A stretch of 64,000 nucleotides of DNA, from positions 62,001 through 126,000 of the forward strand of contig QOQB01000001.1 in assembly GCA_003331305.1 (NCBI GenBank), read 5' to 3'. The position numbers and the translations under genes were made by a program. The stretch's first letter is position 1. Each line of letters starts with the position of its first letter. The stretch is from Flavobacteriales bacterium (GTDB lineage Bacteria; Bacteroidota; Bacteroidia; Flavobacteriales; Flavobacteriaceae). Below the pieces are notes generated by a model that was given only the letters and a program-made list of their open reading frames with translations, was not told the origin of the DNA and did not search any database. Below are positions 25,874 to 45,765 of the stretch, piece after piece.

Positions 25874-26698
25874 ATGAACACAATGAGAAACTGGGAAACC
25901 ATAAAAGAGTATAGCGACATCCGCTTTGAATTTTACAAAGGCATTGCTAAAATTACAATCAACCGCGAAAAGGTTTACAATGCCTTTCGCCCCGAAACGA
26001 ATAATCAAATGTTAGAAGCCATGGACGTTTGCCGGGAGAGAGAAGACATAGATGTAGTGGTGTTTACAGGTGCCGGTGAAAAGGCTTTTTGCAGCGGTGG
26101 CGATCAAAATGTTAAAGGAGTAGGCGGTTATGTGGGCGAGGACGGCGTACCACGACTGAACGTGTTGGATTTGCACAAAAAAATCAGAGAAATCCCAAAA
26201 CCTGTGGTTGCCATGGTAAACGGCTACGCCATTGGCGGTGGGCATGTACTGCATGTGGTGTGTGATCTTACCATTGCCAGTGAAAACGCCATCTTTGGGC
26301 AAACAGGTCCTAAGGTTGGTAGTTTTGACGGCGGATTTGGCTCGTCTTATTTGGCACGCCATGTAGGGCAGAAAAAAGCACGTGAAATATGGTTTCTATG
26401 CCAACAGTACTCAGCACAAGAAGCCTTAGAGATGGGCTTAGTTAATAAGGTCGTTCCACTTGCTGATTTGGAAGACACTACTGTAGAATGGTGTCAGATT
26501 ATGCAACAGCGCAGTCCGTTGGCGCTACGTATGCTCAAACGATGTATGAATGCCGAACTGGATGGGCAACACGGGTTAATGCAACTAGCAGGAGATGCGA
26601 CGTTAATGTATTACTTGATGGACGAAGCACAGGAAGGAAAAAACGCCTTTTTGGAAAAGCGCGCACCCAACTTCAAACAGTATCCTAAATTCCCATAG
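25874..26698 (+). CDS. menB: 1,4-dihydroxy-2-naphthoyl-CoA synthase
   Basis: Crotonase-fold enzyme closing the second ring of the naphthoquinone from O-succinylbenzoyl-CoA. 274 residues. CSGGDQ (73-78) and [11 protein letters not shown] (117-127) form the oxyanion hole region, and Asp152 in [11 protein letters not shown] is the family's catalytic acid/base. The stop TAG shares a base with the menA GTG. Confidence 0.97.
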
Positions 26699-28643: not shown

Positions 28644-28644
28644 C

Positions 28645-29697
28645 ATGCAATTCCATCCAAAATTTCGACTTAATGGCAAGGCGTACAGCCAAGACAGCCT
28701 GCTTGTAGCAGCTAAAAAATGGCAGTCCTCTGGAGATAATGAACAAAAACAATTGGGGATGTTTATGGAGGAATGGCTTCACGGCAATGATTCCCTAACG
28801 CTACACACCTCGGGTTCTACGGGTACACCAAAACCATTACTGGTATCCAAAAAATCCATGCAAGCTTCTGCGGAACGAACCGCTGCTTTTTTTGAACTTT
28901 CGCCAGGCGATACGGCCTTACTTTGTTTACCCATACGCTATATCGCTGGAAAAATGATGCTGGTTCGGGCTCTGGTTATTGGGCTAGAATTGGATGTAAT
29001 CCCTTCTAAGACATTACTTGACTTAAAAGGTAAAACCTACGATTTTGCAGCACTAATTCCTTTACAAGTCAATGCCTCATTTGAGTTGCTAGGAAACCTA
29101 AAAAAGATACTTATTGGGGGGGCGCCTATCCCTACTGAACTACGCAAGGCATTAGCTAAAAAACATCCGCACTGCGTGGAAACTTACGGAATGACGGAAA
29201 CCCTGACCCATGTGGCTACACGCCCCGTGTGCTATCCGGCTGTTCCATTTAGGGCTATGCCCGGCGTAAAAATTAATGTAAATCACGATAGTTGTTTGCA
29301 AATAATGGCCCCTTACATTTCGTCATCGCCCATTTGCACTAACGATGTCGTGGAGCTTTTAGACAATCAATCGTTTATGTTACTAGGTAGACGTGATTTT
29401 GTCATTAACTCTGGGGGGAGAAAAATATTCCCAGAACAGTTGGAAGAAAAATTGAGCGTTCAGTTAAGAATTCCATTCTTTTTTACAGGAATTCCAGATG
29501 TGGAATTGGGGGAAAAACTGGTACTTGTTGTTGAGGGGGGTATCAAAGAAAAACAACTCGGACTAAAAACCGCAACAAAACTGTTAGGCGCAGACAAACA
29601 CCTTGTTCCAAAGGATGTGTTGTGCTTAGATACGTTTGTGCTCACACGTACAGGAAAGTTAAATAGAATAGCTACATTAAAAGGATTAGCTTTGTAA
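28645..29697 (+). CDS. menE: O-succinylbenzoate--CoA ligase
   Basis: Acyl-adenylating enzyme activating O-succinylbenzoate. At 350 residues it is shorter than the 450-500 of E. coli/Bacillus MenE, as in other Flavobacteriaceae. The core is intact: P-loop-like HTSGSTGTPKPLLV (54-67), YGMTET, GRRDFVINSGGRKIFPEQLE and the catalytic lysine in TRTGKLNR near the C-terminus. Last gene of the men run. Confidence 0.93.
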   Translation: MQFHPKFRLNGKAYSQDSLLVAAKKWQSSGDNEQKQLGMFMEEWLHGNDSLTLHTSGSTGTPKPLLVSKKSMQASAERTAAFFELSPGDTALLCLPIRYIAGKMMLVRALVIGLELDVIPSKTLLDLKGKTYDFAALIPLQVNASFELLGNLKKILIGGAPIPTELRKALAKKHPHCVETYGMTETLTHVATRPVCYPAVPFRAMPGVKINVNHDSCLQIMAPYISSSPICTNDVVELLDNQSFMLLGRRDFVINSGGRKIFPEQLEEKLSVQLRIPFFFTGIPDVELGEKLVLVVEGGIKEKQLGLKTATKLLGADKHLVPKDVLCLDTFVLTRTGKLNRIATLKGLAL

Positions 29698-30029: not shown

Positions 30030-32003
30030 GTGAAAAAGAAACTTGTTTTTTTTATTGCACTTCTTTTTTTTGTGTCTTGTGTGTCTTCAACATCAGTAAC
30101 CACTGCTTCTACCCCTCAAGAAAAAAAAGTCCAACAGAAGCAAGCGCTCAAAGACCGCTTGCAGGCCACCGTGGTTGAGCAAAATCGCTTAATTGATAGT
30201 TTAATTGCTGCTAAAGACACACGTTTAAAAAAAGACAAAAACGGCAACTATATTCGTCCCAACTGGGTGTCGGCCAAGGGAAATCCATTGTATTACAGCA
30301 CCAATAAACGCTCGGCACGAAAAGCCATTAAAGCAAATGCAGTGGTTGCTGGGGGTGCACTTGGACTAAACCTCAATGGTAAAGGCATTCATATGGGTAT
30401 TTGGGATGCTGGGCATATTTTTACTAATCATAATGAGTTTAATGGCGGGGCTGATTTTTTTGGTTATAAAGTCCCTATAGAAATCGCTGATTCCACAGCG
30501 GCCGATATCTGGCTCGGCCATCCAACAGCCGTGGCGTCTATTGTTATTGCCAAAGGGCTTTGGGAGAACGAAAAATATGATGTTGGCGGTATTTCACCCC
30601 AACTAGAAAAAATATATAGTTATGACTGGGATAATGATGTTTATGAAATTTTTAAACAACTCCAAACAAACAATAACACAGACTTTATTCTTTCCAACCA
30701 TTCTTATGGCATACCACTATTAGACGATAATAACAAACTTATTCTTGAGAGTGAAGAAATAGGTGGCTATAGCCTGTGGAGTTCACTTATAGACGAAATT
30801 ACGTATACCTACCCCAACTACTTGCACGTAGTGGCCGGTGGAAACGATGGTAGAAAAGTGTATCCAAGCCAGTCTGTTAATGGCTTAGACCAATTAACAG
30901 GTTCAACTACATCAAAAAATGCACTAACCGTAGGTAGTTTTTCCATGGATGACAATAGCGAAAACATCACCCCAACAGGATTTAGCAGCGCAGGACCTAC
31001 CAACGATTTTCGTATAAAGCCTGAAATCTGTGCTGCTGGGCAAGCATTAGGTGCCGCCACTTGGAACGAAGATAATCCTGAAGCTACGGATAGCTATGTA
31101 GTTACAAGCGGCACCTCATTTGCCGCTCCAGCAACGGCAGCAGGCGTTGCCCTACTGCAACAACTTTACAAGCAAAAGCAGAATGCATTTATGCGTGGGG
31201 CTACCGCCAAAGCCTTACTATGCCATACGGCAGATGATATTACAGAGTGGGGTACACAAGATATTACAGGTCCTGATGTTAAAACGGGCTATGGTGCAGT
31301 GAATCTGGAAAAAGCAGCTGCACTTATTCGAAAAGATGTAAATGAAACCAATACCATTTTGGAATTTGAACTGAATGAAAACGATACCAAAACACTATAT
31401 TTTCAGGTTATTGAGGAAGGAACCTTGACCGCCACACTGAGTTGGTACGACCCACACACTGTTGAGAGTTCAACCGCTACTCTAGTTAACGATTTAGACC
31501 TGCGAATAACGCAAGAAAACACCATATATTATCCATGGAAACTTTCCGAAGATGCGCAAAAAGCCGTTGCTGTTTTGAGCGACAATAGCACAGATAACCT
31601 AGAGCAAATTAAAATTTCAGAAAATTTGGGTGGTTCATATAAGGTTGAAGTAAGTAATAAAGGTAAGTTACAAAATGGAAGTCAAGAGGCATCGCTAATA
31701 CTTTCAGGGCCTGGTATCATTTTTGTTACTGAAAAAGAATTGGAAAATATTAGTAAAGATGAATTTTTGGTACACCCCATTCCGGCGAATGACTACTTTA
31801 CCATTACCACGCTTAAAAAAAATCTTCCTTTTCGTAATGTACGCTTGCTAAACTTGACAGGAAGCGAGGTTGCTCGTGTCGAAAAACTTTCCTTTACACA
31901 AACTCCAATGCGTTTCTACGTAAATCACATTGCAACTGGGAGTTATATTCTGGCTATTGAAACACAGAATGGAGCCTTTATTAAAAATGTAATAATTCGT
32001 TAG
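30030..32003 (+). CDS. secreted subtilisin-family (S8) serine peptidase with T9SS C-terminal domain
   Basis: 657 residues from GTG 30030 (MKKKLVFFIALLFFVSC); an in-frame TTG at 30003 lies inside the terminator hairpin and is rejected. The N-terminus looks like a lipoprotein signal with Cys17 in FFVSC, although a plain Sec cleavage is possible. Catalytic residues: Asp126 (GIWDAGH), His164 (LGHPTAVAS), Asn272 (AGGNDG), Ser363 (SGTSFAAPA). A beta-rich P-domain-like region follows, then a Por-secretion-type tail over the last about 80 residues (HPIPANDYFTI to FIKNVIIR). Close paralogue of the subtilase at 43133. Substrate unknown; likely an extracellular or surface protease. Confidence 0.9.
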   Translation: MKKKLVFFIALLFFVSCVSSTSVTTASTPQEKKVQQKQALKDRLQATVVEQNRLIDSLIAAKDTRLKKDKNGNYIRPNWVSAKGNPLYYSTNKRSARKAIKANAVVAGGALGLNLNGKGIHMGIWDAGHIFTNHNEFNGGADFFGYKVPIEIADSTAADIWLGHPTAVASIVIAKGLWENEKYDVGGISPQLEKIYSYDWDNDVYEIFKQLQTNNNTDFILSNHSYGIPLLDDNNKLILESEEIGGYSLWSSLIDEITYTYPNYLHVVAGGNDGRKVYPSQSVNGLDQLTGSTTSKNALTVGSFSMDDNSENITPTGFSSAGPTNDFRIKPEICAAGQALGAATWNEDNPEATDSYVVTSGTSFAAPATAAGVALLQQLYKQKQNAFMRGATAKALLCHTADDITEWGTQDITGPDVKTGYGAVNLEKAAALIRKDVNETNTILEFELNENDTKTLYFQVIEEGTLTATLSWYDPHTVESSTATLVNDLDLRITQENTIYYPWKLSEDAQKAVAVLSDNSTDNLEQIKISENLGGSYKVEVSNKGKLQNGSQEASLILSGPGIIFVTEKELENISKDEFLVHPIPANDYFTITTLKKNLPFRNVRLLNLTGSEVARVEKLSFTQTPMRFYVNHIATGSYILAIETQNGAFIKNVIIR

Positions 32004-32067
32004 TTTCACTACTGATTTTTACTGAAAAATCAAGCTAAAACCTTTAACTTTATATTTATTAGATAAA

Positions 32068-32099
32068 TTTGTTTTTTTAAGAAATTATTAACATTTTCG
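32068..32099 (+). promoter_or_regulatory. candidate promoter of the first susC-like gene
   Basis: TTTG (32068-32071), 20-nt spacer, CATTTTCG (32092-32099). The box is a weak match to TAnnTTTG, but it aligns base for base in position with the better promoter of the second susC (37095-37126). The surrounding ATTATTAACAT is shared. Confidence 0.35.
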
Positions 32100-32118
32100 T
32101 AACAAATAATTAACAATT

Positions 32119-35100
32119 ATGAAAACTAAATTTATTAAAATTTTAACATTAGCTTTTGCTTTTGTATTTCAGATTTCCTTTGCACAACAAACTGTTTCAG
32201 GGACCATCACAGACGCTGATAATCAGCCACTCCCTGGAGCTACTGTAGTTGTTCAAGGAACTTCTTCGGCCACAACAACCGACTTTGATGGAAACTATTC
32301 TATTGCAGCTGCCAACGGCGACGTTTTGGTGATAAGCTATGTAGGGTATACTGCCACTGAGGTTACAGTTAATGGCACTTCAATGAATGTTTCACTTACA
32401 ACTTCTACTGCACTAGATGAAGTAGTTGTAACTGCCCTTGGTGTAACTAGAGACAAAAAATCATTGGGGTATGCAGTTCAAACTGTTAGTGGTGAGTCTG
32501 TTGGAGATGTAAAATCTGTAAATGCAATTGAAGCATTACAAGGTGAGGTAGCTGGACTTGACATTCAGGCCTTTAACACTATGGGGGGGTCTGCCAACGT
32601 AGTTATCCGTGGATATTCGTCATTATCTGGTTCGAACCAAGCACTTTTTGTTATTGACGGGACCCCTATAGATAATTTAACCGGAAACAGTAGAGATAAT
32701 AATACTGGTAGAGGAGGTGTTGACTTTGGTAACGCTGCGATGGATATTAATCCCAACGATATTGAGTCCGTTTCTGTACTTAAAGGTGCTGCGGCATCTG
32801 CATTGTATGGTTCTAGAGCCTCTAATGGTGTAATCCTCATTACTACAAAGAAAGGTAAAGCCCAAGAAGGTCTGGGTATTTCGTTTAACTCTCAAATAAC
32901 TACAGGTACTGTAGATATGGAAACATTACCCGTATACCAAGACCAATATGGTTATGGGTATGGACAGTACAGAAGAGCCTACATTGGTCCTTCTGCGATT
33001 GAAACTGGAGCGCAATGGACTGGTAACTATTACGGACAATGGGGAAATAATTCTTCGTTTTACACAGGTGACGATGGATCTTATGGTCCTAAATTGGTTG
33101 GTCAAGAGGTTCATCATTGGTACAACATGGTACCCGAGTGGGCTGATTTATATCAACAAACGGCACCCGCTGTAGCTCCAAATGACACACCAAATGATTT
33201 CTTTGAGAATGATGTAACTTTTCAAAACTCCATATCGCTCTCGGATGCTAATGAAAATGGTTCATTTAGGTTAAGCTTCACAAATTTAAGTAATGAAGGA
33301 ATCCTTCCAAACTCAAGTTTGGACAGAAATTCCGCCTCTCTAAGAGCAACAAGGAATTTTGGAGATTTAACTGTAGACGGTTCTGTTAACTATGTTAACT
33401 CACAAACAACAGGTCGATTTAATACGGGTTATGACGGTCTAAACCCTATGCAAGGTTTCAGACAATGGTGGGCTGTTGGTGCTAGTATTTTAGAGCAAAA
33501 AAGAGTTTTTGATGAAACAGGCAAAAACTACTCTTGGAACATGATTGGTACAAATACTGACGATGCCACAGCTTCTCCAAACCATCAGCCGTTGTATTTT
33601 GACAACCCTTACTGGTCACGTTATAATAACTATTCCACAGACTCAAGAAATCGTTATTTCGGAAATATAAGTCTAACGTATGATCTCAACGAAGACATCA
33701 ACATTTTAGGTCGTGTTACATATGACAATGTAACTGAAGTAAGAGAGCAACGTGCTAACGTAGCTGTTGGAACAGGTGGTAAAGGAGCAAATTTATTTGA
33801 CGACCAACCTGGATATCAATTGCAAAACAGAATTCGTTCTGAATACAACTACGATTTAATTTTTGATTATACTAAAGATTTAAGTGATAACCTTGATATG
33901 GTCGCTCTTGCAGGATATAATTTAAGAGTTCAAAACTGGGATCATGCAACTGCTCAAACAAACGGTGGATTAAATTTCCCTGATATTTTCTCGTTAACGA
34001 ATTCCGTTAATCCTTTGACTGCGGCTGATGTTGCTCAATATGATGCTCAAAAGAAAGTAGAAGGGCTTTATGGATCTTTGAGTTTTGGATACGATGACAC
34101 CTATTTTGTTGAAGGAACTTACAGAAGAGACCGCTCATCTGCATTACCTGTAGACAACAACAGCTATGATTATTATTCTGTTTCTGGCTCTGTTATTCTT
34201 TCAAACCTAATTAGTAGCGATATCATCACGTTTGCGAAACTTAGAGCAAACCACGCGGTTGTTGGTAACGACACGGCTCCCTACAATGTATTTAGAGCGT
34301 ACACTATTAACCCAGCTAGAAATGGAGCAGCGTCTTCGTCTAACCCAAGTACACTTCCAAACCAAAATTTGAAAGCAGAGACAACAACTGAAAATGAAGT
34401 TGGATTGGAAATGACATTATTTAATGGAAGGTTAGGGCTAGACCTATCTGTTTACGAAAAGACTACTGATGATCTTTTGACCTCATTAGACATGTCTCCT
34501 TCAACTGGATTTAGTGGAATTGTTACCAATGCCGGTAGCATTCAAAACAAAGGTTTTGAAGCTCTTGTTCGTCTGACTCCGGTGATGATGAATGATTTTA
34601 AATGGAATGTTGTCTTAAACTACAGTACGTTCGAATCTGAGATCTTGAGTCTTGGAAACGATGCTACTGGAAACGCAATCCAATATCTAAACCAAATGTC
34701 ACCTCAAGGTGGTGTAAGTATTGGTGGGCAAGTTGGGGAGCCATACGGTGTAATTCGAGGACATGCTCACGTTAGAGATGCAAATGGTGATAAAGTATTA
34801 AGAGTCCGTTCCGGGTCGTATGACTACGCACACTATTTGAGAACTTCCAATTCAAATAATGTTATTGGAGACATTAACCCTGATTGGACAGGAAGTGTTC
34901 GTAACTCTTTCACATACAAGAATTTTGATTTAAGCTTTTTGATTGATATTCAACAAGGAGGAGATTTCTTTTCACTAGACACATGGTATGGTTATGGAAC
35001 TGGTGCTTATGATCGCTCAGTTGGCTTAAATCATTTAGGTAATGACATGAGGCTAACCATACCTAACGGTGGTGGTAAACTTCTTGATGGTGTTATTCTT

Positions 35101-35484
35101 CCTGCAAGTGCCACTATAACAGATGGTGTTGCAGATGTTGCTGGGACACAAAACACAGATGTAATGAGTAGATATGACTATTATGCAAACCCTGAGGGTT
35201 GGACATCTATTGGCGCTCCTCACGAAATGCACGTACACGATGCCTCTTTTGCAAAACTAAGAGAGTTAAGAATTGGGTACACGTTCCCATCTGAATTACT
35301 TGATACATCTCCGTTTACAAATGCAGCAGTTGCTTTTGTCGGTAGAAACCTATGGATTATAGGCAAAAATTCTCCTTACACTGATCCTGAAGCTGGTTTA
35401 GGTGCTGGAAATTTCCAAGGGTATCAAACAGGTGCATATCCAGCCGTAAAAACTTATGGACTAAACATCAAGCTTGACTTTTAA
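32119..35484 (+). CDS. SusC/RagA-family TonB-dependent outer membrane transporter (pair 1)
   Basis: 1121 residues. Signal peptide 1-22 (ends ISFA before QQ). Carboxypeptidase-D-like regulatory domain about 25-96. TonB-box-like DEVVVTA at 100-106. Plug domain about 112-248 with the SusC signature LKGAAASALYGSRASNGVI (221-239), then a beta barrel to a C-terminal aromatic end (NIKLDF). It forms the outer-membrane channel for the SusD-like lipoprotein encoded 25 nt downstream. The N-terminal 60 codons are nearly duplicated in the second SusC. Arginine is mostly AGA, unlike the upstream genes. Confidence 0.95.
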   Translation: MKTKFIKILTLAFAFVFQISFAQQTVSGTITDADNQPLPGATVVVQGTSSATTTDFDGNYSIAAANGDVLVISYVGYTATEVTVNGTSMNVSLTTSTALDEVVVTALGVTRDKKSLGYAVQTVSGESVGDVKSVNAIEALQGEVAGLDIQAFNTMGGSANVVIRGYSSLSGSNQALFVIDGTPIDNLTGNSRDNNTGRGGVDFGNAAMDINPNDIESVSVLKGAAASALYGSRASNGVILITTKKGKAQEGLGISFNSQITTGTVDMETLPVYQDQYGYGYGQYRRAYIGPSAIETGAQWTGNYYGQWGNNSSFYTGDDGSYGPKLVGQEVHHWYNMVPEWADLYQQTAPAVAPNDTPNDFFENDVTFQNSISLSDANENGSFRLSFTNLSNEGILPNSSLDRNSASLRATRNFGDLTVDGSVNYVNSQTTGRFNTGYDGLNPMQGFRQWWAVGASILEQKRVFDETGKNYSWNMIGTNTDDATASPNHQPLYFDNPYWSRYNNYSTDSRNRYFGNISLTYDLNEDINILGRVTYDNVTEVREQRANVAVGTGGKGANLFDDQPGYQLQNRIRSEYNYDLIFDYTKDLSDNLDMVALAGYNLRVQNWDHATAQTNGGLNFPDIFSLTNSVNPLTAADVAQYDAQKKVEGLYGSLSFGYDDTYFVEGTYRRDRSSALPVDNNSYDYYSVSGSVILSNLISSDIITFAKLRANHAVVGNDTAPYNVFRAYTINPARNGAASSSNPSTLPNQNLKAETTTENEVGLEMTLFNGRLGLDLSVYEKTTDDLLTSLDMSPSTGFSGIVTNAGSIQNKGFEALVRLTPVMMNDFKWNVVLNYSTFESEILSLGNDATGNAIQYLNQMSPQGGVSIGGQVGEPYGVIRGHAHVRDANGDKVLRVRSGSYDYAHYLRTSNSNNVIGDINPDWTGSVRNSFTYKNFDLSFLIDIQQGGDFFSLDTWYGYGTGAYDRSVGLNHLGNDMRLTIPNGGGKLLDGVILPASATITDGVADVAGTQNTDVMSRYDYYANPEGWTSIGAPHEMHVHDASFAKLRELRIGYTFPSELLDTSPFTNAAVAFVGRNLWIIGKNSPYTDPEAGLGAGNFQGYQTGAYPAVKTYGLNIKLDF

Positions 35485-35509
35485 ATTTTGAACATTTAAT
35501 AACTTAAAA

Positions 35510-36919
35510 ATGAAAAAATATTTCTTATTAATTTTTACTCTTGCCTTAGCAAGCTGTGCTTCAGATGAGGCATATGAGGATTTGAATAAAAATCCTAATG
35601 CACCTGCTGAGGTTACAGATAGTCAACTATTTGTATCAGCTACAAATAGCCTAACAGACTTTATTGAGTCTACAGACGTTAATGTAAATAACTTTAGACT
35701 CTATGCGCAATATTGGACACAAACCCAATACACTGACGAAGCAAACTACGAGATGCAAAACAGAGAAATACCAGACTATATGTTCTCTGAATTCTATCGT
35801 GATGTTTTGGGAGATTTAACTAATGCTGCCGCACAAACTACTGATGGCGTGAAGCTTGCTCAAATTGAACTTCTTTCTGTTTATGCTTGGCAAATGCTTG
35901 TTGATGCATTTGGAGATGTTCCTTACAGCGAAGCGTTACGTGCCGAGGGTGACGATGCAGTTCTATCTCCCAAGTATGATGACGATGCAGCAATTTATGC
36001 TGATTTGATTGCTCGCGCTAAAGCTGCTGTAACTGGTGTTTCTGGTTCTGGCGTTGGATACTCGAGCGATGACTTGATTTTTGGTGGCAATACTGCTGCT
36101 TGGACTAAGTTTGGTAATTCACTTTTGGTTAAATTAGGTTCACGCCTACTAGATCAAAATAGTGCTGAAGCTAGGAGTTTGATTGAAAGTCATTATGCAG
36201 CTGGGATTGCTTCTAATGCAGATAATGCATACATTCAGTTTGAAGGTGCTCCACCGAATACAAATCCACTTTGGGAAGATTTGGTACAGTCTGGAAGACA
36301 AGACTTTATTCCTGCAGATACGTTTGTTGACGTAATCAATGCGCTTAATGACCCTAGAGCAGATAAATTCTTTGATCCTAGTTCAAAAATTAGTGGTGCT
36401 TATAAAGGAGGGCCTTATGGAGTTTCTACGCCATTCAACGATAATTCTCACATCTCACAAACCCTTTACGCTCCTGACTTTAGAGGGGTGCTTATGGATT
36501 ATGCAGAAATGAGCTTTATCTTAGCTGAAGCAGCTAATAGAGGATTTAGTGTTGGTGGTACTGCTGCACAACATTATGAAAATGGTGTAAATGCAAGTAT
36601 GGCTGAATGGGGAGTAGCTGATGCTGATGCAGCAGCTTACCTAGCACATGCCGATGTTGCATTTGCCACAGCTGCAGGAACAGACCAAGAAAAAATTGCA
36701 AAGCAATTTTGGATTGCCATGTATAACAGAGGTTTTGAAGGATGGACGGTCTATAGGCTATTTAATGCTCCTACTCTTCAAAACTCAGGTACATTAAATT
36801 TACCTGTGCCAAAACGTTACACGTATCCACAATCTGAACAGACTATTAATGGAACAAATGTCACAGCTGCTAATGGTGGTAATGACACACAACAAACAGC
36901 TATTTTCTGGGATAACTAA
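35510..36919 (+). CDS. SusD/RagB-family surface lipoprotein (SusD-like_2 type, pair 1)
   Basis: 469 residues. Lipoprotein signal MKKYFLLIFTLALASC with Cys16, followed by ASDE, an acidic export-signal-like start of the mature part. NKNPNAPAEV just after it and the TPR-like helices place it with the SusD-like_2 subgroup rather than classical SusD. It would cap the SusC at 32119 and bind ligand at the cell surface. A strong terminator follows 26 nt after the stop. Confidence 0.9.
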   Translation: MKKYFLLIFTLALASCASDEAYEDLNKNPNAPAEVTDSQLFVSATNSLTDFIESTDVNVNNFRLYAQYWTQTQYTDEANYEMQNREIPDYMFSEFYRDVLGDLTNAAAQTTDGVKLAQIELLSVYAWQMLVDAFGDVPYSEALRAEGDDAVLSPKYDDDAAIYADLIARAKAAVTGVSGSGVGYSSDDLIFGGNTAAWTKFGNSLLVKLGSRLLDQNSAEARSLIESHYAAGIASNADNAYIQFEGAPPNTNPLWEDLVQSGRQDFIPADTFVDVINALNDPRADKFFDPSSKISGAYKGGPYGVSTPFNDNSHISQTLYAPDFRGVLMDYAEMSFILAEAANRGFSVGGTAAQHYENGVNASMAEWGVADADAAAYLAHADVAFATAAGTDQEKIAKQFWIAMYNRGFEGWTVYRLFNAPTLQNSGTLNLPVPKRYTYPQSEQTINGTNVTAANGGNDTQQTAIFWDN

Positions 36920-36945
36920 TAATACTTAAGCGTTTATTAAAATTT

Positions 36946-36975
36946 AAAACCTCGCCACTTGCGGGGTTTTTTTTT
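36946..36975 (+). terminator. rho-independent terminator after susC/D pair 1
   Basis: AAAACCTCGC (36946-36955) pairs with GCGGGGTTTT (36961-36970), one G-T wobble, loop CACTT, then a T run to 36975. It separates the two susC/D pairs into different transcripts. Confidence 0.85.
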
Positions 36976-37094
36976 ACCTAAATGTTAAATTTTCATATAA
37001 ATTTTTAACAATGTAGTTTGAATAGAATAGCTAGAATATTAAAAACCTAAAAATAGGTCATGAATGCTGTTTTTTTTTTGTTCAAATTAAAAAA

Positions 37095-37126
37095 TTTGTG
37101 TTTTAACTAAATTATTAACATATTTG
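37095..37126 (+). promoter_or_regulatory. candidate promoter of the second susC-like gene
   Basis: TTTG (37095-37098), 20-nt spacer, CATATTTG (37119-37126), one base off TAnnTTTG. It starts inside an inverted repeat CAAATT/AATTTG (37083-37098) that could be an operator. Predicted transcript start is about 13 nt before the ATG. Confidence 0.45.
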
Positions 37127-37145
37127 GAAATAACAATTTAAGATT

Positions 37146-40100
37146 ATGAAAACTAAATTTATTCAACTTTTAACATTAGCTTTTGTTTTTGTTATCCAAG
37201 TTGCTTTTGCGCAACAAACGGTTACAGGAACTATTAGTAACTCAAACGGTGAGCCAATCCCTGGTGCTACTGTTGCAATTAAAGGAACCTCTTCAGCAAC
37301 TTCTGCTGACTTTGATGGGAGATATTCTATAATTGCATCGAACGGGGATGTTTTATTGGTAAGCTACGTAGGTTATCTAGCAGCTCAGTACACTGTTGAC
37401 GGTGCTAGTGCAGACATAACATTAACAAGTGCAACTGACCTTGATGAGGTTACTGTAACTGGTTATGGTCAAACTACAAAAGCAAAATCTGCCAGCTCGA
37501 CTGTCCGCATTACTGCTGAAACTATAGGTAACAGACCCAATGCTAGTTTAATTCAAACTTTAACTGGCCAGGTGGCTGGATTAGATATATTTACAAACTC
37601 TGGAGCTCCAGGAGCAAACTCATTGATTAATTTACGCGGTAGAAATTCAATAAATGGAAATACCGAACCACTTATTCTTTTGGACGGAACTCCTATTGAC
37701 GAAGATGATTTTGCTGCGCTTAATCCTAATGAAGTTGAGTCACTTGATGTACTTAAAGATGCTGGTGCTACAGCAATTTATGGTAATAGAGGTGCAAATG
37801 GTGTTATTCTAATCAAAACTAGAAGAGGAAACTACGAACAAGACCTAAGAGTCCGCATTAATGCATCTTACGCTTTTTCATCTGTTCAAGAAGATGATTT
37901 TGACATGATGGGGGCTTCCGAAATTCTTACTTTAGAAAAACAATTAAATAGAGGATTAGGTGCTACTCTAACTGATGCAGAAATAGCTGCTTATGGTGAC
38001 GGGTACAACTGGCAAGACCACTTTTGGCAAAATGGTTTAACATCAAATCACAACATTACGCTAACTAGTGGAGGATCAAATTCTTCTCAATTGACTTCAT
38101 TTGGATATTTTGATCAAGAAGGTATTACTATAACAACAGGATTAAAGAGATTTAACCTTAGAAATAACTTTAATACCAAATCTGAGAATGGAAAATTTAG
38201 AATGGCTTCTAGTTTATCGATAAATTTTGCTAAGTCAAACAACAGAGCAGATGAAGGTAGTTCTGGAATTAATCGAAATGTTCAATTTGGGCCGCAGTAC
38301 TCTGCTCCTTACGTATATCCAAGTGATAAGGGTGATGATCCCTCTGCATTTGGAAGTGCCAAAGGATTAAGCGTTTTTCAGATTACACCGTTGATTTTAA
38401 TGGACTTGGCTGAAAAAACTGTTAATAAAGTTGAAGAAACAAAAATTATATACAACCTTGACACATCATACGATCTACTGGATAATTTAACCTTTAGATC
38501 TGTTACTGGTTTGGATTATGCCGGAACAAGAGGTATGTTCTCTGAGCCATCCGACGGTTGGTCTTCAACTTATTTTGAAGGTAGTGATGATGCTGGATTG
38601 GCTGGTTCACAAAGTTTAAGCCAAACCAATATTTTTTCCATAAACCAAGTTACATCATTAACTTGGAATCAAACATTTGACGAAAAGCACAATATAACAT
38701 TGGCTGCTTACACTGAGTATTTTAAAGCTCATTATAAAACTTTTGGATACAATTCTGTTGGATTAAATCCGAAAACATACTATCCTGGTGACGGTTCTTC
38801 TTACGTAGGTGACAGTTCATCAAACGATGTGTTTGTTGATACAACTAGTGCAAACTTGTTAAATGCTGGTTTATTTTCATATTTCTCATCTTTAGATTAT
38901 GATTTTGATGGCAAATATGGTTTTTCAGCTACTGCAAGAAGAGATGCTTCTTACAGATTCTCTAAATCTAACAGATGGGGAACATTTGGTTCGGTTGCAT
39001 TGAGATGGAATGTTTCAGAAGAAGACTTCATGCAAGATACAGCATTTGATTACCTTAAAATCCGTACTTCATATGGAACAAATGGTAACCAGAGAATTTC
39101 AGGTGGAGGTTACTTTACTGCTCCAGATTTATACGAAAGCTTGTATGCAACTGGAACAGGTTATCAAGGCCAAGTTTCAACTTTTGTAAGCCAAATACCT
39201 AATGACGACTTGAAGTGGGAGACTGTAACACAATTCAATGTTGGTGCAGAGTTTTCTGTTTTCGATGATTTAATAAATGGAGAAATTGATGTTTATTTCA
39301 AGAAAACTGATGATTTGTATCAAAGCAAACCAGTATCTGCAATTAACGCTATCACTTCTTTAAGTGCTAATGTTGGAGGTGTTGAAAATAATGGATTTGA
39401 TATACTTCTAAACCTCAATTTAATCAAAGCAAAAGGAGATAATTTTGGTTTAAGCTTTTCGTTTAATGGAAATTACAATGAAAATAAGTTGTATGATATC
39501 CCAGCAGACACAGGCTACATAATCGGAATTGGTAGAAATGGGTATCAGATTGGTGAAAATTATATTATTCGTTATGCGGGTGTGAACCCTGCAAATGGTA
39601 ATCTATTATTCTACACCAAAGACAATCAAATTACTGAAAGTCCAAATGCAGATACTGACAGGGTTTGGACAGATAAAACATCAGTGCCTGATTTTTTTGG
39701 AGGATTCAGCGCAAAAGCTACATACAAGGGCTTTACCTTCAGTACACAATTTAACTATGCCACAGGGACATATAGATTCGATAATAACATGAGTCGTTTC
39801 CAAGCTTACTCAAGTGTAGGAAGGTTTAACATGTCTAGAGATGTTTTGAGAGCTTGGACGCCGACTAACACTATAACTGACATGCCGGCTTATAATTCAT
39901 CTAATAGGACTGCCTACTCAAGCGACAGGTTCCAAAGAAATGCAGATTATTTAACCCTACGTTTTGCTAGTCTTTCATATGACTTCAAACCAAGTTTACT
40001 TGCTGGTACTGGTATAAAAAATCTAAACTTATTTGTTAATGGAGAAAATCTATTAACATTTTCAGAGTGGAGAGGGTTTGATGTAGTTGCTCGTTCAAGC

Positions 40101-40160
40101 TCATCGCTAATTTACCCTAACCCAAGAACAATTTCAATTGGTCTAAATGCAACTTTTTAA
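37146..40160 (+). CDS. SusC/RagA-family TonB-dependent outer membrane transporter (pair 2)
   Basis: 1004 residues. Signal peptide 1-22 (VAFA before QQ), regulatory domain about 25-96, DEVTVTGYG at about 100-108, plug with VLKDAGATAIYGNRGANGVI, then the barrel ending FNATF-like (SIGLNATF). The N-terminal 80 residues and the upstream promoter region closely resemble the first SusC, but the barrel is about 117 residues shorter and divergent, suggesting a different ligand. The SusD partner starts 10 nt downstream. Confidence 0.95.
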   Translation: MKTKFIQLLTLAFVFVIQVAFAQQTVTGTISNSNGEPIPGATVAIKGTSSATSADFDGRYSIIASNGDVLLVSYVGYLAAQYTVDGASADITLTSATDLDEVTVTGYGQTTKAKSASSTVRITAETIGNRPNASLIQTLTGQVAGLDIFTNSGAPGANSLINLRGRNSINGNTEPLILLDGTPIDEDDFAALNPNEVESLDVLKDAGATAIYGNRGANGVILIKTRRGNYEQDLRVRINASYAFSSVQEDDFDMMGASEILTLEKQLNRGLGATLTDAEIAAYGDGYNWQDHFWQNGLTSNHNITLTSGGSNSSQLTSFGYFDQEGITITTGLKRFNLRNNFNTKSENGKFRMASSLSINFAKSNNRADEGSSGINRNVQFGPQYSAPYVYPSDKGDDPSAFGSAKGLSVFQITPLILMDLAEKTVNKVEETKIIYNLDTSYDLLDNLTFRSVTGLDYAGTRGMFSEPSDGWSSTYFEGSDDAGLAGSQSLSQTNIFSINQVTSLTWNQTFDEKHNITLAAYTEYFKAHYKTFGYNSVGLNPKTYYPGDGSSYVGDSSSNDVFVDTTSANLLNAGLFSYFSSLDYDFDGKYGFSATARRDASYRFSKSNRWGTFGSVALRWNVSEEDFMQDTAFDYLKIRTSYGTNGNQRISGGGYFTAPDLYESLYATGTGYQGQVSTFVSQIPNDDLKWETVTQFNVGAEFSVFDDLINGEIDVYFKKTDDLYQSKPVSAINAITSLSANVGGVENNGFDILLNLNLIKAKGDNFGLSFSFNGNYNENKLYDIPADTGYIIGIGRNGYQIGENYIIRYAGVNPANGNLLFYTKDNQITESPNADTDRVWTDKTSVPDFFGGFSAKATYKGFTFSTQFNYATGTYRFDNNMSRFQAYSSVGRFNMSRDVLRAWTPTNTITDMPAYNSSNRTAYSSDRFQRNADYLTLRFASLSYDFKPSLLAGTGIKNLNLFVNGENLLTFSEWRGFDVVARSSSSLIYPNPRTISIGLNATF

Positions 40161-40170
40161 ATAGAATAAA

Positions 40171-41685
40171 ATGAAAATAAACTTTAAACTTTACTCACTT
40201 TTGCTTCTTACAACCCTTTTTAGTTGTAAAGATGCAATAGACATTGATCAACCAGGAAGATTAACTGATGTTAGAGCTTTTGAATCCATAGATGATTTGA
40301 AAACTGGAATATATTGGTTATATGACAATCTAGACTGGACACCAGACATGGCACTTAGTGCAATGTATACAGACGAAATTGGTATTGGAGTCCAATCAGG
40401 AAACCAAGGTTTAAGCCAATATGATTATATCCTAACACCATCAAGTACTGCCTCTAGTGCTTTTTGGACTGGTTTATATGACCTTGTAAATTTTGCAAAC
40501 AGAGTTATTGAAGGAGCCGCTGTTTACACACCTACAAGTGATGAACAGGACCAATATGATGCAATTCTTGCTCATGCGACTGCAATTAGAGCATTTGGTC
40601 ACTTGAAGCTATTGGCATATTTCACACCAGCATCTGATTACACAAATGATGATGCGCTAGCGATACCACTAGTGATGAAGGTTCCATCAATCACTGAACA
40701 ACCTTCTCGTGATACTGTTGGTACTGTATTTTCAGCAATTTTAGCTGATTTAAATTCGGCTCAACAACACATTGATACTGATCTAGGACTTGTTGGAGAT
40801 TCAAATTCATACAAAACTGGAGATGCTATTACGGCTGTCAAAGCGATTATTGCTGCTATGCGTGGTAATTATAATGATGCATTAACTCTTTCTGAAACCT
40901 TAGTTCAAAAATATCCTTTAGCAACAGTTGAAGAATACCCGTTGATATTTACTGATGAAATTGATACTGAGGTAATATTCAAACTTGAGCGCACTCGTAA
41001 TGATAGTTATGATGGACAGGGCTCAGTTGGATCGGTTGCTGCAGGTGGCTGGGCAGGTGCAATATTTTGTTTTAGTGGACCTACAGCTGATCCTTATTTT
41101 GAGGTTGGTAGAGCATTATTTAACGTACTAGAAGATGGAGATATTCGTAAAGATGTAATTGTACATCCTGAATCCGTTGTTGACACGGATTATGCTAGTA
41201 AAACTGCAGGTGAATTCAAGCAATCTGATATATTATATGTTGGTAAACACAAAGGTTCAGAAGGCCAAGAGCTAATGAATGACCTTAAGGTAATTCGTGT
41301 TGCTGAAATGTATATGATACATGCAGAAGCTCAAGCAGCCCTAGGGGACTTGTCTGGTGCAGCAACAACTTTAACAACTCTTAGAAATGCTCGATTCTCA
41401 ACTCCTCAACTTCCATTTGCATTTTCTAACCAAGCAGAGGCTTTTGGTGCTATTGTAGATGAAAGAAGAATTGAATTTGCTTTTGAAGGTAATAGATATT
41501 TTACACTTAAAAGATTGGGGCCAAGAGCAAACCGTGATGCTGTAAAAGATCCCAAAGATTGTGAATTAGCAGCAGTTCAAAACTGCAGTCTTTCATCAAG
41601 TGACTACAGGTTTACATTACCAATACCATTAATTGAGTTTGATGGAAACCCTAACCTAAGAAATCAACAAAATCCTGGTTATTAA
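40171..41685 (+). CDS. SusD/RagB-family surface lipoprotein (classical type, pair 2)
   Basis: 504 residues. Lipoprotein signal with Cys19 (LTTLFSC then KDAID). The classical SusD C-terminal domain is visible: VAEMYMIHAEAQAALGD, LRNARF, IVDERRIEFAFEGNRYFTLKR and PIPLIEFDGNPNLRNQQNPGY. It partners the SusC at 37146, and the surface lipoprotein gene follows 11 nt later in the same transcript. Confidence 0.93.
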   Translation: MKINFKLYSLLLLTTLFSCKDAIDIDQPGRLTDVRAFESIDDLKTGIYWLYDNLDWTPDMALSAMYTDEIGIGVQSGNQGLSQYDYILTPSSTASSAFWTGLYDLVNFANRVIEGAAVYTPTSDEQDQYDAILAHATAIRAFGHLKLLAYFTPASDYTNDDALAIPLVMKVPSITEQPSRDTVGTVFSAILADLNSAQQHIDTDLGLVGDSNSYKTGDAITAVKAIIAAMRGNYNDALTLSETLVQKYPLATVEEYPLIFTDEIDTEVIFKLERTRNDSYDGQGSVGSVAAGGWAGAIFCFSGPTADPYFEVGRALFNVLEDGDIRKDVIVHPESVVDTDYASKTAGEFKQSDILYVGKHKGSEGQELMNDLKVIRVAEMYMIHAEAQAALGDLSGAATTLTTLRNARFSTPQLPFAFSNQAEAFGAIVDERRIEFAFEGNRYFTLKRLGPRANRDAVKDPKDCELAAVQNCSLSSSDYRFTLPIPLIEFDGNPNLRNQQNPGY

Positions 41686-41696
41686 TACTTAAAAAA

Positions 41697-42500
41697 ATGA
41701 AAAATAATTTAAAATTTATATTAGCAGCTTTTATACTTACTGCTTTTTTCACCTCTTGTGAGGAAGAGCTAATTATATATACACCGGAAAGCTCATACGC
41801 TCAATTAGGAAGTAGTAATCCCATAACAATGAGCGAGAATTTATCATCAGGTACACAAATCAAAGTTCTATTAGGAACGGCAGATCCATCAAATGGTGGT
41901 ACATTTAATTTTAATGTAACAGGTGATACATCACGCTTTTCGGTAACCCCATCTAATGGAGTAATTGAATTTCAAGGTGGTGCAATTGAATCGATGATTA
42001 CTATTACCCCTATAGACAATTCTGTAAGTGATGGTAATGCTAATCTTACAGTAAGTTTGACAGGTGATAACATTGGACCTGGTGGAACTGGCTTGAGTTT
42101 GACATCAGTTGATATAACAATTGTTGATGACGATTGTCCAACACTTATTGATGAAACAGAAACTTGGATAAGTCAATATCAGGATTCAAGAGCTGCTGCT
42201 ACTGAAGTACAACTCACAAAATTAGGAGAAAACCAATGGTATTGTCCTACAACATGGGGATACAATGGTGTAGCTAATTTTACTGGAGTTGCTGGATATG
42301 CTGGTCTTTACCCGTTTGATGTCGTTATAACATTAAATCCAGCAGATAATACTATCACTGTTGAAGGTACATCAAGTTGGGCAGTTGGTGGAACTGGCTC
42401 ATATGATCCATGTACTAATACTTTTAGTTTAGCTGTATTAGATGATGAATTATTCTCAGGAGGTGGTATCGATAATGGGTGGACATTAACAGGACAATAA
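41697..42500 (+). CDS. surface lipoprotein with Calx-beta-like domain
   Basis: 267 residues. Lipoprotein signal with Cys21 (FFTSC), followed directly by EEE, an acidic run resembling the Bacteroidota surface-export signal. Residues about 35-130 look like a Calx-beta/immunoglobulin-type strand module ending in VDITIVDDDCP. The remaining about 130 residues are rich in W, G, T and N (WYCPTTWGYNGVANF) and I do not recognise them. Its position as third gene after SusC/D suggests a SusE/F-like accessory binding protein; that is inference from context. Confidence 0.75.
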   Translation: MKNNLKFILAAFILTAFFTSCEEELIIYTPESSYAQLGSSNPITMSENLSSGTQIKVLLGTADPSNGGTFNFNVTGDTSRFSVTPSNGVIEFQGGAIESMITITPIDNSVSDGNANLTVSLTGDNIGPGGTGLSLTSVDITIVDDDCPTLIDETETWISQYQDSRAAATEVQLTKLGENQWYCPTTWGYNGVANFTGVAGYAGLYPFDVVITLNPADNTITVEGTSSWAVGGTGSYDPCTNTFSLAVLDDELFSGGGIDNGWTLTGQ

Positions 42501-42523
42501 TTTATTATAATATTTGATTATAT

Positions 42524-42550
42524 AACCCCAACTAAAAGTTGGGGTTTTTT
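42524..42550 (+). terminator. rho-independent terminator after the lipoprotein gene
   Basis: AACCCCAACT (42524-42533) pairs perfectly with AGTTGGGGTT (42537-42546), loop AAA, then T to 42550. It also contains the stop codon and last codons of the convergent gene on the minus strand. Confidence 0.88.
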
Positions 42551-43170
42551 ATTTGATAAAGAAAAAACTTTATCCAATCCTCTTCTTTTTTAAACTTATA
42601 ACGTTTAATAAATTTTGCGTGATCGGGAAATGTATTTAAAAGTTCTTTTTTTGAATTTCTCATAATATAAAAATTGTCATTTATATAAAAAATGTAACGG
42701 TTTTTAACTTCTATTTTTCCAGGTTTAGGTAAATCATATCCGGTTGATGAAGGTCTCGGAGGTATTAATTTTGTGAAAAAACTTTTATATAGATATTGAT
42801 CTCCGCTTTGAGCTATCTCTTTTACAATATACCATTCACCATTGATTTCAAGATTTTTAAACTTTAAGTCACCAATAGAAATGAATAAATCTTTGCTATA
42901 ATTAAATTCAAAAATTTCTCCAAACTCGTCCTTAAAAGAAATTGTGTTTGAATAGGTATTGATGTTTAACATTTTTTCAAACTTATTACCCTGAAAATTG
43001 ACAATACCACGCTTAAAGTTATTAAAAAGATAAACTGAACCCGTATATTTGTCGATACTCTTTTTATTAGAAATTTCATTAAATAACTGAACGGGTATTT
43101 CTATTTGTTGTTGTGAAAAAATAAAGCTGCTTATGTGTACAAAAAAAATAAGTATATTTCTGCTAATCAT
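42532..43170 (-). CDS. hypothetical secreted protein
   Basis: 212 residues with a Sec-type signal peptide (MISRNILIFFVHISSFIFSQ). The mature protein is rich in Lys, Phe, Tyr and Asn, beta-strand-like, with the proline-rich stretch LIPPRPSSTGYDLPKPGKIE around residues 136-155. I do not recognise a named family. Its first 38 bases overlap the first 38 bases of the subtilase gene on the other strand, so both signal peptides come from the same DNA. The next in-frame ATG is about 65 codons in and would remove the signal peptide. The stop codon lies within the terminator hairpin of the lipoprotein gene. Very AT-rich. Confidence 0.7.
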   Translation of the reverse strand: MISRNILIFFVHISSFIFSQQQIEIPVQLFNEISNKKSIDKYTGSVYLFNNFKRGIVNFQGNKFEKMLNINTYSNTISFKDEFGEIFEFNYSKDLFISIGDLKFKNLEINGEWYIVKEIAQSGDQYLYKSFFTKLIPPRPSSTGYDLPKPGKIEVKNRYIFYINDNFYIMRNSKKELLNTFPDHAKFIKRYKFKKEEDWIKFFLYQIKNPNF

Positions 43171-45040
43171 TTCTCCTTTTTTATTTTTTGGACAAGTTAA
43201 TGATTTTGAAAAATATTATTTAGAATTACAAAAAAGGTTTCATGAAAAGGATATTATTGAAAATGAAAGAATTGATTATTACATAGAAAGGAATGCTCAA
43301 TCTAAGAGACCTGCTAAAATTACATTCGACGGAGTACCCATTTTTTTTGAAACTCATAATCTTGAATCAATGGTTGATACAAAAACCAATCTAATTGTAC
43401 CCGGTGGTAGTGAGGGATTAAATTTAGAGGGTAGTGGTTTTAACGTTGGTGTTTGGGATGGGGGGCACGTATTTAAATTTCATGATGAATTCCAAAATGT
43501 TTCTGACAGAATTGTTATTGGAAACGATCTGTCTTTTCAATTAAATTATAGTTCACATGCAACTCATGTTGCGGGTACTATTGGATCCAGTGGTATAAAT
43601 TCTGAAGCAAGAGGAATGGCATCCAAAGTGAAAATTATTTCTTTCGACTGGTCAAGGGTTATGATAGAATTGTTAATGGATTCATCTAAAGATATTCACA
43701 TATCAAATCACTCTTACGGCATCGACGGGTTTTCAATCTCTGGTACACCCAATATTAGTTACAGCTATTTTGGAACTTATGATGATTGGGCTGAAGACCT
43801 AGATGCTATCCATTTTGCTAAACCTCATCATTTAGCAATTTGCTCTGCAGGAAATGACGGAACATATATTAATACTGATTCTGTAATAAGTCGTTATGAT
43901 AAGCTCACTGATATGTCAACAGCAAAAAACAATTTAGTTGTGGCTAACGCAAAAAAAATTTTATATTTTGAGTCTGGATTTGAATTAATTAGAATAAATG
44001 AATCTAGCAGTCAAGGACCTACAAATGATTTAAGAATTAAACCTGACATTTCTGGAATCGGAACAAATATTTTGTCAACTGATTTGAATACTAATAACAT
44101 AACTGTAACAAACTTATATTCAAGAAAAACAGGAACATCAATGGCTGCGCCTAACATTTCTGGATCTATGGTGTTATTACAAGAATATTTTTATAACACC
44201 CAAGGAAGACTTCCACTTTCTTCCACGCTAAAGGCACTAGTTATAAACTCCGCAAAAGAAGCAGGAGATTCTGGTCCTGATCCAAATTTTGGCTGGGGGA
44301 TTATGGATGCAAGTAAAAGTTCACAAATTATTACAAGGCATATTTCAAAACCTACAATCATTGAGGGTAAAATTTTTGATGGTCAAAAAATTATGTATGA
44401 TTTGGAGCTTTCTGAGGATATAGATCAATACTCAATTACTATATGTTGGACCGATCCTGGAGCAACAAATTTATATCCGCAAATTAATAAGGATGTCAGT
44501 GTTTTAATTAATGATATTGATCTAAGAGTTGTAGAAAACCTATCAATTGAACATCTGCCTTATGCTTTTTCTGTTGAAAACAAAATTAATAATGATATTT
44601 GGGCAATTAAATCAGATAATAAAGTTGACAACGTAGAGCGGATAGACTTTGCTAGAAATGAAGGGTCTAACTATAAAGTTGTTATATCCCATAAAGGTAA
44701 AATAACAAACCCTGCATTAAGCGATGATGAAACAGAGTATCAGAATTTTTCTATAGTAGTTTCTGAGGGGGCTAACATTAACAAGACTTTAAATAATAAG
44801 TCAGTTGACATGTTCCAAAATGAATTCTTTATCATTTATGAGCTAGATTTTATTAATTTAATTAATCCTAATCAACTATTTATTAACGAAATATATGTGT
44901 ATGATTACAATGGTAAATTAATTTTTAACCAAAATTACCAAGGTACACAACTAAATTATAAAATTCATAATTCACCTAAAAGAGGTGTTATTGTTATAAA
45001 ATCTGGAAATGAAAATTTTGTAAAAAAATATATAAAATAA
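43133..45040 (+). CDS. secreted subtilisin-family (S8) serine peptidase, second paralogue
   Basis: 635 residues. Signal peptide MCTKKISIFLLIISPFLFFG, cleaved near QVND. Catalytic residues Asp109 (GVWDGGH), His145 (SHATHVAGT), Asn241 (SAGNDG) and Ser336 (KTGTSMAAPN). It shares the GLNLxGxG-GxWDxGHxFxxHxEF block, SNHSYGI and QGPTNDLRIKPDI with the subtilase at 30030. The last about 80 residues (from FQNEFFIIYELDF to NFVKKYIK) look like a divergent T9SS sorting tail. All-AGA/AGG arginine use and high AT content differ from rlmB, which starts 3 nt after. Confidence 0.88.
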   Translation: MCTKKISIFLLIISPFLFFGQVNDFEKYYLELQKRFHEKDIIENERIDYYIERNAQSKRPAKITFDGVPIFFETHNLESMVDTKTNLIVPGGSEGLNLEGSGFNVGVWDGGHVFKFHDEFQNVSDRIVIGNDLSFQLNYSSHATHVAGTIGSSGINSEARGMASKVKIISFDWSRVMIELLMDSSKDIHISNHSYGIDGFSISGTPNISYSYFGTYDDWAEDLDAIHFAKPHHLAICSAGNDGTYINTDSVISRYDKLTDMSTAKNNLVVANAKKILYFESGFELIRINESSSQGPTNDLRIKPDISGIGTNILSTDLNTNNITVTNLYSRKTGTSMAAPNISGSMVLLQEYFYNTQGRLPLSSTLKALVINSAKEAGDSGPDPNFGWGIMDASKSSQIITRHISKPTIIEGKIFDGQKIMYDLELSEDIDQYSITICWTDPGATNLYPQINKDVSVLINDIDLRVVENLSIEHLPYAFSVENKINNDIWAIKSDNKVDNVERIDFARNEGSNYKVVISHKGKITNPALSDDETEYQNFSIVVSEGANINKTLNNKSVDMFQNEFFIIYELDFINLINPNQLFINEIYVYDYNGKLIFNQNYQGTQLNYKIHNSPKRGVIVIKSGNENFVKKYIK

Positions 45041-45042: not shown

Positions 45043-45765
45043 GTGAACATAACAAAAGTTATTTTCGGTCTCAATGCAGTTCGTGAGGCCATTCAAGACC
45101 CTTCACGAATTCAAAAAGTATTTATTGAAAACGGGGCGAGCTCTCCCGCTTCGCAAAAACTCAAAGAAGAAGTCATGCGTTCAGGTGTGTCTTATTCCTT
45201 TGTTCCAGAACAAAAACTACACAAACATACCAAAGAAAACCACCAAGGGTTTGTTGCACTTATTGGAGAAATTCAATTTGAATCTCTAGAAAACATAATT
45301 GATATTAATAAACAACAACTATTTCTTTTGCTAGACGGCGTAACCGATGTGCGAAATTTTGGTGCAATTATTCGTTCGGCTTTGGGATTAGGTGCCAGTG
45401 GTATTATCATAGGGCAAACAGGCGCTGCACCACTAAACGACATTGCCATTCAGGCATCAGCAGGCGGTGCCTTTCATATTCCCATCATTCGCGTGAGCCA
45501 TCTAAAAGATGCTATGTATTTACTACAATCTCATGAAATAACCCTGTTGGGATGTACCGAAAAAGCAACTAAAAACATTAGCGAAACCAACTTAAATAAA
45601 TCTGTAGGAATTGTTATGGGGAATGAAAACAAGGGAATTAGTAAAGGAGTTCTAAATCTCTGTGATGAACAAATTAAAATACCTATTAATGACACCCTTG
45701 ATTCTTATAATGTTTCGGTAGCTACTGCTATAGTCCTTTACGAATATTACCGCCAAAACAATTAG
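45043..45765 (+). CDS. rlmB: 23S rRNA (guanosine-2'-O-)-methyltransferase RlmB family
   Basis: 240-residue SpoU/TrmH-type (SPOUT) methyltransferase. An N-terminal substrate-binding domain (VIFGLNAVREAI) precedes three SPOUT motifs: DGVTDVRNFGAIIRSALGLG, IVMGNENKGIS and IPINDTLDSYNVSVATAIVLYEY. By family it methylates G2251-equivalent in 23S rRNA. GTG start 2 nt after the subtilase stop; codon use returns to CGN arginine here, marking the right edge of the accessory region. Converges on yjjG with a 4-nt overlap. Confidence 0.93.
   Translation: MNITKVIFGLNAVREAIQDPSRIQKVFIENGASSPASQKLKEEVMRSGVSYSFVPEQKLHKHTKENHQGFVALIGEIQFESLENIIDINKQQLFLLLDGVTDVRNFGAIIRSALGLGASGIIIGQTGAAPLNDIAIQASAGGAFHIPIIRVSHLKDAMYLLQSHEITLLGCTEKATKNISETNLNKSVGIVMGNENKGISKGVLNLCDEQIKIPINDTLDSYNVSVATAIVLYEYYRQNN

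Follow-up and report, generated by a model that had tools for sequence, protein, structure and literature searches.

A probable peptide-harvest island whose importers are exchanged around a constant subtilase, at one chromosomal position in a genus of Flavobacteriaceae

What does a bacterium take up through two SusC/SusD importer pairs that have secreted peptidases, and no glycan-cutting enzyme, for neighbors? The question is posed by a locus in Flavobacteriales bacterium GCA_003331305.1 (Flavobacteriaceae), a draft genome of 1.46 Mb that is 86% complete. The stretch analyzed, called the window here, is 64,000 nt of contig QOQB01000001.1 (positions 62,001–126,000, forward strand), and the locus occupies 30030–45040 of it, with the adjoining rlmB extending to 45765. 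Two subtilases of peptidase family S8, termed S8A and S8B, flank two susCD pairs and a surface lipoprotein gene, an arrangement set out in an earlier reading of the same DNA (the original prediction) and found with every named gene in its place. Of the two hallmarks of a polysaccharide utilization locus (PUL), the susC/susD pair is present and linked carbohydrate-active enzymes are not: as had been predicted, Pfam finds no glycoside hydrolase, polysaccharide lyase, carbohydrate esterase or sulfatase in 30030–45765, nor does it in the adjacent menaquinone genes. Bacteroidota have many SusCD importers free of such enzymes, for the most part with no known substrate. The genome has six full-scoring SusC genes, SusC1 and SusC2 being two of them; for comparison, another of its SusC contigs encodes a hybrid two-component regulator along with a sulfatase and resembles a glycan locus. 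Our answer is that the locus is probably a peptide-harvest island at a fixed site, with importers exchanged around a constant subtilase.

The locus is one fixed chromosomal site, between menE and rlmB, with exchangeable importers. The genus of the window is represented by 17 genomes, this one among them, of which 15 yielded S8 relatives, and 14 loci besides that of the window were read, some on partial contigs (loci are cited by our own numbers, such as L196). Both boundaries are visible in the window and in L196, while each of the remaining genus loci shows one boundary before its contig or stretch ends, always the one that matches its side. Subtilase A is present in 13 of the 15 loci, the window included, and is not seen in L191 or in L190, whose contig ends there. 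Across genus loci the median identity to the window is 94% for MenB, 77% for RlmB and 58% for S8A. What lies between is another matter: the SusC proteins at the site fall into about 11 types (<50% identity outside the N-terminus, a cut applied with short fragments excluded and with some types coming from partial contigs), and orthologues of SusD1 and SusD2 occur in three and two of the 17 genomes, respectively. Where the SusC barrels differ, so do the SusD lids and the lipoproteins, and with few exceptions an insert is a SusC, a SusD, a surface lipoprotein or a peptidase; in L196 an M43 metallopeptidase with a type IX secretion system (T9SS) tail occupies the position of S8B. Turnover has also left traces. 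Directly before S8A, L200 has the last ~40 codons of SusD1, with an internal stop, plus its terminator; in L203 the SusC1 start runs directly into the SusD1 end, and a stop is present; and SusC2 of the window is a mosaic relative to that of L195, the two being 83% identical from residue 105 on and 59% before it.

The peptidases are the sole PF00082 proteins found in this incomplete genome. Catalytic Asp, His and Ser and the oxyanion Asn are intact in both, and the nearest structures in the PDB, SubHal (5fax) and KP-43 (1wmd), mark both as KP-43-type. The original prediction placed them in one subfamily, which is right in that broad sense and fails at a finer level, their identity being 28% and their lineages deeply separated. 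In a FastTree phylogeny with 122 relatives S8A belongs to a clade of 14 members, all from the genus of the window (support 1.0), and S8B groups with other S8B of the genus and with Winogradskyella copies (support 0.99), in a family-wide lineage that in other genera adjoins susCD and often rlmB. A recent tandem duplication, considered as their origin, is rejected given these separate old clades. S8A scores 36.7 bits against a cut-off of 27 for the T9SS sorting domain PF18962 (TIGR04183, at 22.6 bits, is slightly below its cut-off of 23) and, with a PorU sortase (1103 bits) and 20 tail matches in the genome, qualifies as type A cargo. Its N-terminus has a lipoprotein-type signal (..FFVSC), and a lipobox-like sequence is found in all 14 clade members; a lipid anchor, T9SS, or both probably keep S8A at the surface. 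Casein, gelatin and fibrinogen are all degraded by T9SS peptidases of KP-43 type from Bergeyella (PMC11982257).

Two further observations concern these enzymes. The combination of a lipoprotein-type signal (30030–30090 in S8A) with a T9SS-like tail in the 14 clade members is an unusual double address, and the Cys of S8A, unlike that of the locus lipoprotein, is not followed by an acidic surface-export motif. Outside the genus, in L038, L045 and further short S8 loci, the catalytic Asp is replaced by Glu, which is the case for seven of 58 short S8 relatives.

Is the partnership of peptidase and importer peculiar to one genus? Its conservation elsewhere in Flavobacteriaceae, which the original prediction proposed as a check, is borne out. 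In an even draw of 149 family genomes, each from another genus, 52 have a relative of S8A (E ≤ 1e-20). Where the surroundings of 16 short S8 loci from 15 genera were taken, SusC lies within 3.5 kb in 10 of the genera and rlmB within 3 kb in seven, and one further genus has a SusD within 2 kb, with the end where its SusC would be outside the stretch. In a sample of 80 loci from named genomes, SusC is within 6 kb of 21 of 24 short S8 genes (<700 aa) and of none of 56 longer relatives (Fisher P 2e-16, a value weakened by shared ancestry and by a search profile built from mostly linked copies, which leaves the contrast itself unaffected). Since the linkage recurs across genera, the association of S8 with susCD is not due to chance. 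The usual gene order is susC-susD-lipoprotein-S8(-rlmB), and a PF12771-type pair beside a second pair and S8 recurs in L034, L036, L039, L058, L061 and L064, mostly with rlmB; in L064 a BT_2262-like lipoprotein follows the PF12771 pair. Pfam scans of the intervening open reading frames in related loci gave no carbohydrate-active enzyme among the matches listed (in one scan, 25 of 38). In several genera (L038, L041, L059, L062, L065–L068, L072 and L131) a protein of ~650 aa of Porin_10 (PF14121) type replaces rlmB after S8.

What the importers carry is best approached through pair 1. The best PDB match of SusC1 is BT2264 (5fq6_B; 349 bits, E 6e-103), the next standing at 181 bits (E 3e-52), and the matches of SusD1, of the same broad class, include BT2263 (5fq6_A), which is not the best of them. 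The plug loop of SusC1 is 26 residues long and aligns to that of BT2264, most other SusC at these loci having 5–9. Published work describes BT2263/BT2264 as a peptide importer (PMC7782687, PMC10132118), the BT2264 plug loop as able to contact ligand (PMC7782687) and RagAB as an oligopeptide importer (PMC10132118). That pair 1 is a peptide importer, of BT2263/BT2264 type, is thus well supported by sequence comparison. RagAB, originally proposed as the closest functional parallel, has to give way for pair 1, BT2263/BT2264 being nearer.

The scheme we favor would run as follows. The two secreted KP-43-type subtilases would cut extracellular protein, and the surface lipoprotein and the two SusD lids would capture the fragments for import through the two SusC barrels, with pair 1 as an oligopeptide importer and pair 2 as a second importer; the periplasmic products could then be taken across the inner membrane, for instance by the POT transporter that the genome encodes. 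In the course of evolution the site has kept subtilase A, menE and rlmB, with SusCD pairs gained, lost and swapped behind a promoter/signal-peptide module that stays constant. Extracellular proteolysis followed by peptide uptake had been predicted, and for the type of pair 1, the KP-43-type subtilases, the missing carbohydrate-active enzymes and the M43 peptidase in place of S8B in L196 the prediction stands up well, whereas pair 2 enters it by context only: it is probably a second importer, for other peptides.

There are considerations that weigh on the other side. The best PDB match of SusC2 is 8aa4 (E 9.5e-93), which we take to be the SusC of a dextran importer, RagA being second (E 4e-81). 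Structure prediction of the SusD pockets, another check proposed at the outset, yielded for SusD2 an AlphaFold2 model (mean predicted local distance difference test, pLDDT, 83.7) whose fold matches RagB (Z 34.5) and glycan SusDs (laminarin Z 32.7, starch Z 30) equally well, with uncharacterized SusDs at the top (Z 38); uncharacterized structures are also nearest to a sequence profile of SusD2 relatives. Long plug loops occur in a few other SusC as well, and loop length alone is therefore no proof of peptide specificity. A T9SS-like tail had been predicted for both peptidases and is detectable in S8A only: the last 100 residues of S8B in the window gave no sorting-domain match at E up to 1, and S8B orthologues in L190–L193 do match, with 35–50 bits. 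Hairpins after SusD1 and after the lipoprotein suggest at least three transcription units (S8A-susCD1, or S8A and susCD1 apart; susCD2-lipoprotein; S8B-rlmB), and as pairs 1 and 2 look like separate units, their co-expression is not a given. All genomes of the genus, moreover, are incomplete drafts.

Those prepared to give the SusC2 and SusD2 matches full weight may envisage a mixed locus, with pair 1 for peptides and with pair 2 and the lipoprotein for a glycan or glycopeptide that the subtilases expose by stripping glycoproteins; the lipoprotein is, after all, in the position of the surface glycan-binding proteins of PULs. We consider this unlikely. RagA is nearly as close to SusC2 as is 8aa4, the locus is free of glycoside hydrolases, lyases and sulfatases, as are the Pfam matches listed for the linked loci of other genera, and relatives of SusC2 and SusD2 remain linked to S8 in those genera.

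How might importers be exchanged? The two SusC genes of the window begin alike. A block of ~300 nt, comprising promoter/leader, signal peptide and N-terminal domain, is present as a direct repeat, 73% identical between 32065–32364 and 37092–37391, and is matched in 12 of the 14 genus loci. The window and genus loci together have 13 exact copies of the leader TTAACATNTTTG, all of them 19–25 nt before a SusC start, the leader of SusC1 having one mismatch to it; neither leader nor site-type signal peptide is found at the four other SusC read in this genome. Mean identity between the SusC types at the site is 68% over residues 1–104, 41% over 105–250 and 29% beyond. Tentatively, then, and with the balance of our own opinion somewhat against it, homologous exchange in this constant module may be the way in which SusCD-lipoprotein cassettes arrive, depart and recombine, providing different lineages with different peptide diets or different phage and toxin receptors.

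Site SusC genes (window and L191–L203) share the leader layout TTG-N24-TTTG with TTAACAnnnnnTTAACATnTTTG and the signal peptide MKTKFIQILTLAF..FQVALAQQTVSGTV, and a similar TTG-N24-TTTG leader precedes S8-linked SusC in other Flavobacteriaceae. A signal for an RNA-binding protein was considered for it; the promoter-like layout fits at least as well. A constant upstream part with variable transporter bodies brings to mind the SusC/RagA shufflons of Bacteroides, which are invertible outer-membrane protein loci. Here, in contrast, exchange is between lineages and involves direct repeats and whole cassettes, and an invertible shufflon was rejected as there is no long inverted repeat and no invertase or recombinase domain in the open reading frames of the locus.

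Might it be phages or protein toxins with SusC as receptor, rather than diet, that chiefly drive the turnover? That the barrels vary most while the N-terminal 104 residues stay alike would suit them, and SusC can dock foreign agents; the title of 8ypt, for example, places a bacterial ubiquitin-like protein on ButCD. It is nevertheless an improbable account: SusD lids and lipoproteins change with the barrels, as expected for a change of ligand, and no phage or receptor evidence was found.

More remote is the notion that the subtilases serve as weapons at the surface, in adhesin processing or in maturation, and that the SusCD pairs lie beside them by coincidence, as passengers at a site that is permissive. 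The site does tolerate many different inserts, and T9SS subtilases can attack host proteins (PMC11982257), yet linkage across many genera is specific to short S8 relatives, the inserts are nearly all of the four kinds named, and when S8B is replaced, in L196, it is by a peptidase of a different family; taken together these make the notion very unlikely. Membership of S8A and S8B in an IetS-type anti-phage defense is rejected, the weak profile matches (57 bits with PADLOC and, in NCBIfam, 45 bits where the cut-off is 900) being to the shared subtilase core only and contradicted by the curated cut-off, with no ATPase partner among the open reading frames of the locus and with export signals on both proteins.

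The peptide-harvest reading has relatives among known systems. In Bacteroides thetaiotaomicron, BT2259–BT2264 presumably consists, going by PDB titles, of the SusCD pair BT2263/BT2264, the lipoproteins BT2261 and BT2262 and the SusD BT2259. Besides the type of SusC1/SusD1 with its long plug loop, and the BT_2262-like lipoprotein of the related L064, the proximity there of two SusDs, BT2259 and BT2263 (PDB titles), may be set beside the two tandem pairs here; what differs is that the pairs of the window are framed by secreted subtilases, at a site that turns over within the genus, and that pair 1 is not followed by a lipoprotein like BT2261/2262. In Porphyromonas gingivalis, RagAB, which gingipains feed, shares the coupling of SusCD-type oligopeptide import to secreted peptidases and the allelic variation of the importer. 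It differs in that the peptidases here are KP-43 subtilases in the same locus, not gingipains, in that SusC1 is nearer BT2264 and in that a single site exchanges several SusCD types unrelated to one another. Closer to home, peptidase-containing susCD loci of Flavobacterium collinsii (TRV642_0198-0209) and, with a collagenase, of F. psychrophilum (THC0290_2100/2101) have susCD linked to or co-expressed with peptidases, and oligopeptide import has been proposed for them (PMC10132118, PMC9723704); their peptidases are S9, S37, M24 and M43 types or collagenase, and no S8/rlmB site with importer exchange is reported for them. The Bergeyella cardium enzymes SpBcA-C are likewise KP-43 subfamily subtilases and putative T9SS cargo, but the role proposed for them is virulence, and neither SusC nor SusD comes up in the main text (PMC11982257). 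A proteolytic counterpart of a PUL, as the original prediction phrased it, is the best reading of the locus and an idea that is in principle already in the literature (PMC10132118, PMC9723704). Peptidase-linked, peptide-importing susCD loci are known for Flavobacterium; the fixed site with exchangeable importers is new. In the literature searched, with most subscription papers outside it, no S8-peptidase/rlmB site with importer exchange is described, and we see it as a new variant of those known loci.

Table 1. Features of the locus and its boundaries (coordinates are those of the window)
Feature	Coordinates	Strand	Description
menFDBACE operon	22965..29697	+	Pfam; left boundary of site; same boundary in genus loci whose contigs extend there
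S8A	30030..32003 (GTG start)	+	KP-43-like subtilase; PF00082 92 bits; PF18962 36.7 bits; constant gene of the site
Constant 5' module, copy 1	32065..32364	+	Promoter/leader, signal peptide and N-terminal domain of SusC1
SusC1	32119..35484	+	TIGR04056 602 bits; BT2264-type TonB-dependent transporter, long plug loop
SusD1	35510..36919	+	PF12771 (SusD-like_2) 360 bits; surface lipoprotein lid
Intrinsic-terminator-like hairpin after susCD1	36946..36970	+	10-pair stem, then T run
Constant 5' module, copy 2, at SusC2	37092..37391	+	Direct repeat of copy 1; TTAACATATTTG leader at 37115
SusC2	37146..40160	+	TIGR04056 676 bits; TonB-dependent transporter, RagA/8aa4 class
SusD2	40171..41685	+	PF07980/PF14322 SusD lid
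Surface lipoprotein	41697..42500	+	Lipobox, acidic CEEE after Cys
Intrinsic-terminator-like hairpin after susCD2-lipoprotein	42524..42546	+	10-pair stem, then T run
212-aa hypothetical secreted protein	42532..43170	-	26% GC
S8B	43133..45040	+	KP-43-like subtilase; PF00082 98 bits
rlmB	45043..45765	+	TIGR00186 196 bits; right boundary, two bases past S8B

One gene in Table 1 had been overlooked in the original inventory, that for the 212-aa secreted protein on the minus strand. It has no Pfam or PADLOC match and is absent from the other genus loci read, and its low GC content, beside S8B at 31%, makes it a likely recent arrival. The model of the surface lipoprotein (pLDDT 73) has an N-terminal Calx-beta-like domain (Z 12 to Calx-beta domains over 110 residues) and a C-terminal domain of low model confidence; a likeness to BT2262 was looked for, and as Foldseek gave weak matches only (TM <0.35) it is not used as evidence. 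A further terminator-like hairpin, at ~30000–30025, lies directly 5' of the start of S8A; as L200 holds its SusD1 remnant and terminator at the corresponding place, this hairpin may mark where an importer was lost. A scan of the window with Rfam at gathering score revealed no RNA element. Elsewhere in the draft the same pair of T9SS-tail matches appears at G000:C7:20447-24462 and G000:C10:12790-16805 with identical scores, which suggests a duplicated or doubly binned stretch.

Conserved linkage of one peptidase type to varied SusCD pairs provides a sequence rule for calling probable peptide importers. As SusCD pairs swap at the site, we propose that lineages may change which peptides they take up. 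With importers rotating around a constant peptidase at one site, a comparison of sister species could ask whether diet or phage is the selector, and the locus is a testable model for how bacteria change their diet.

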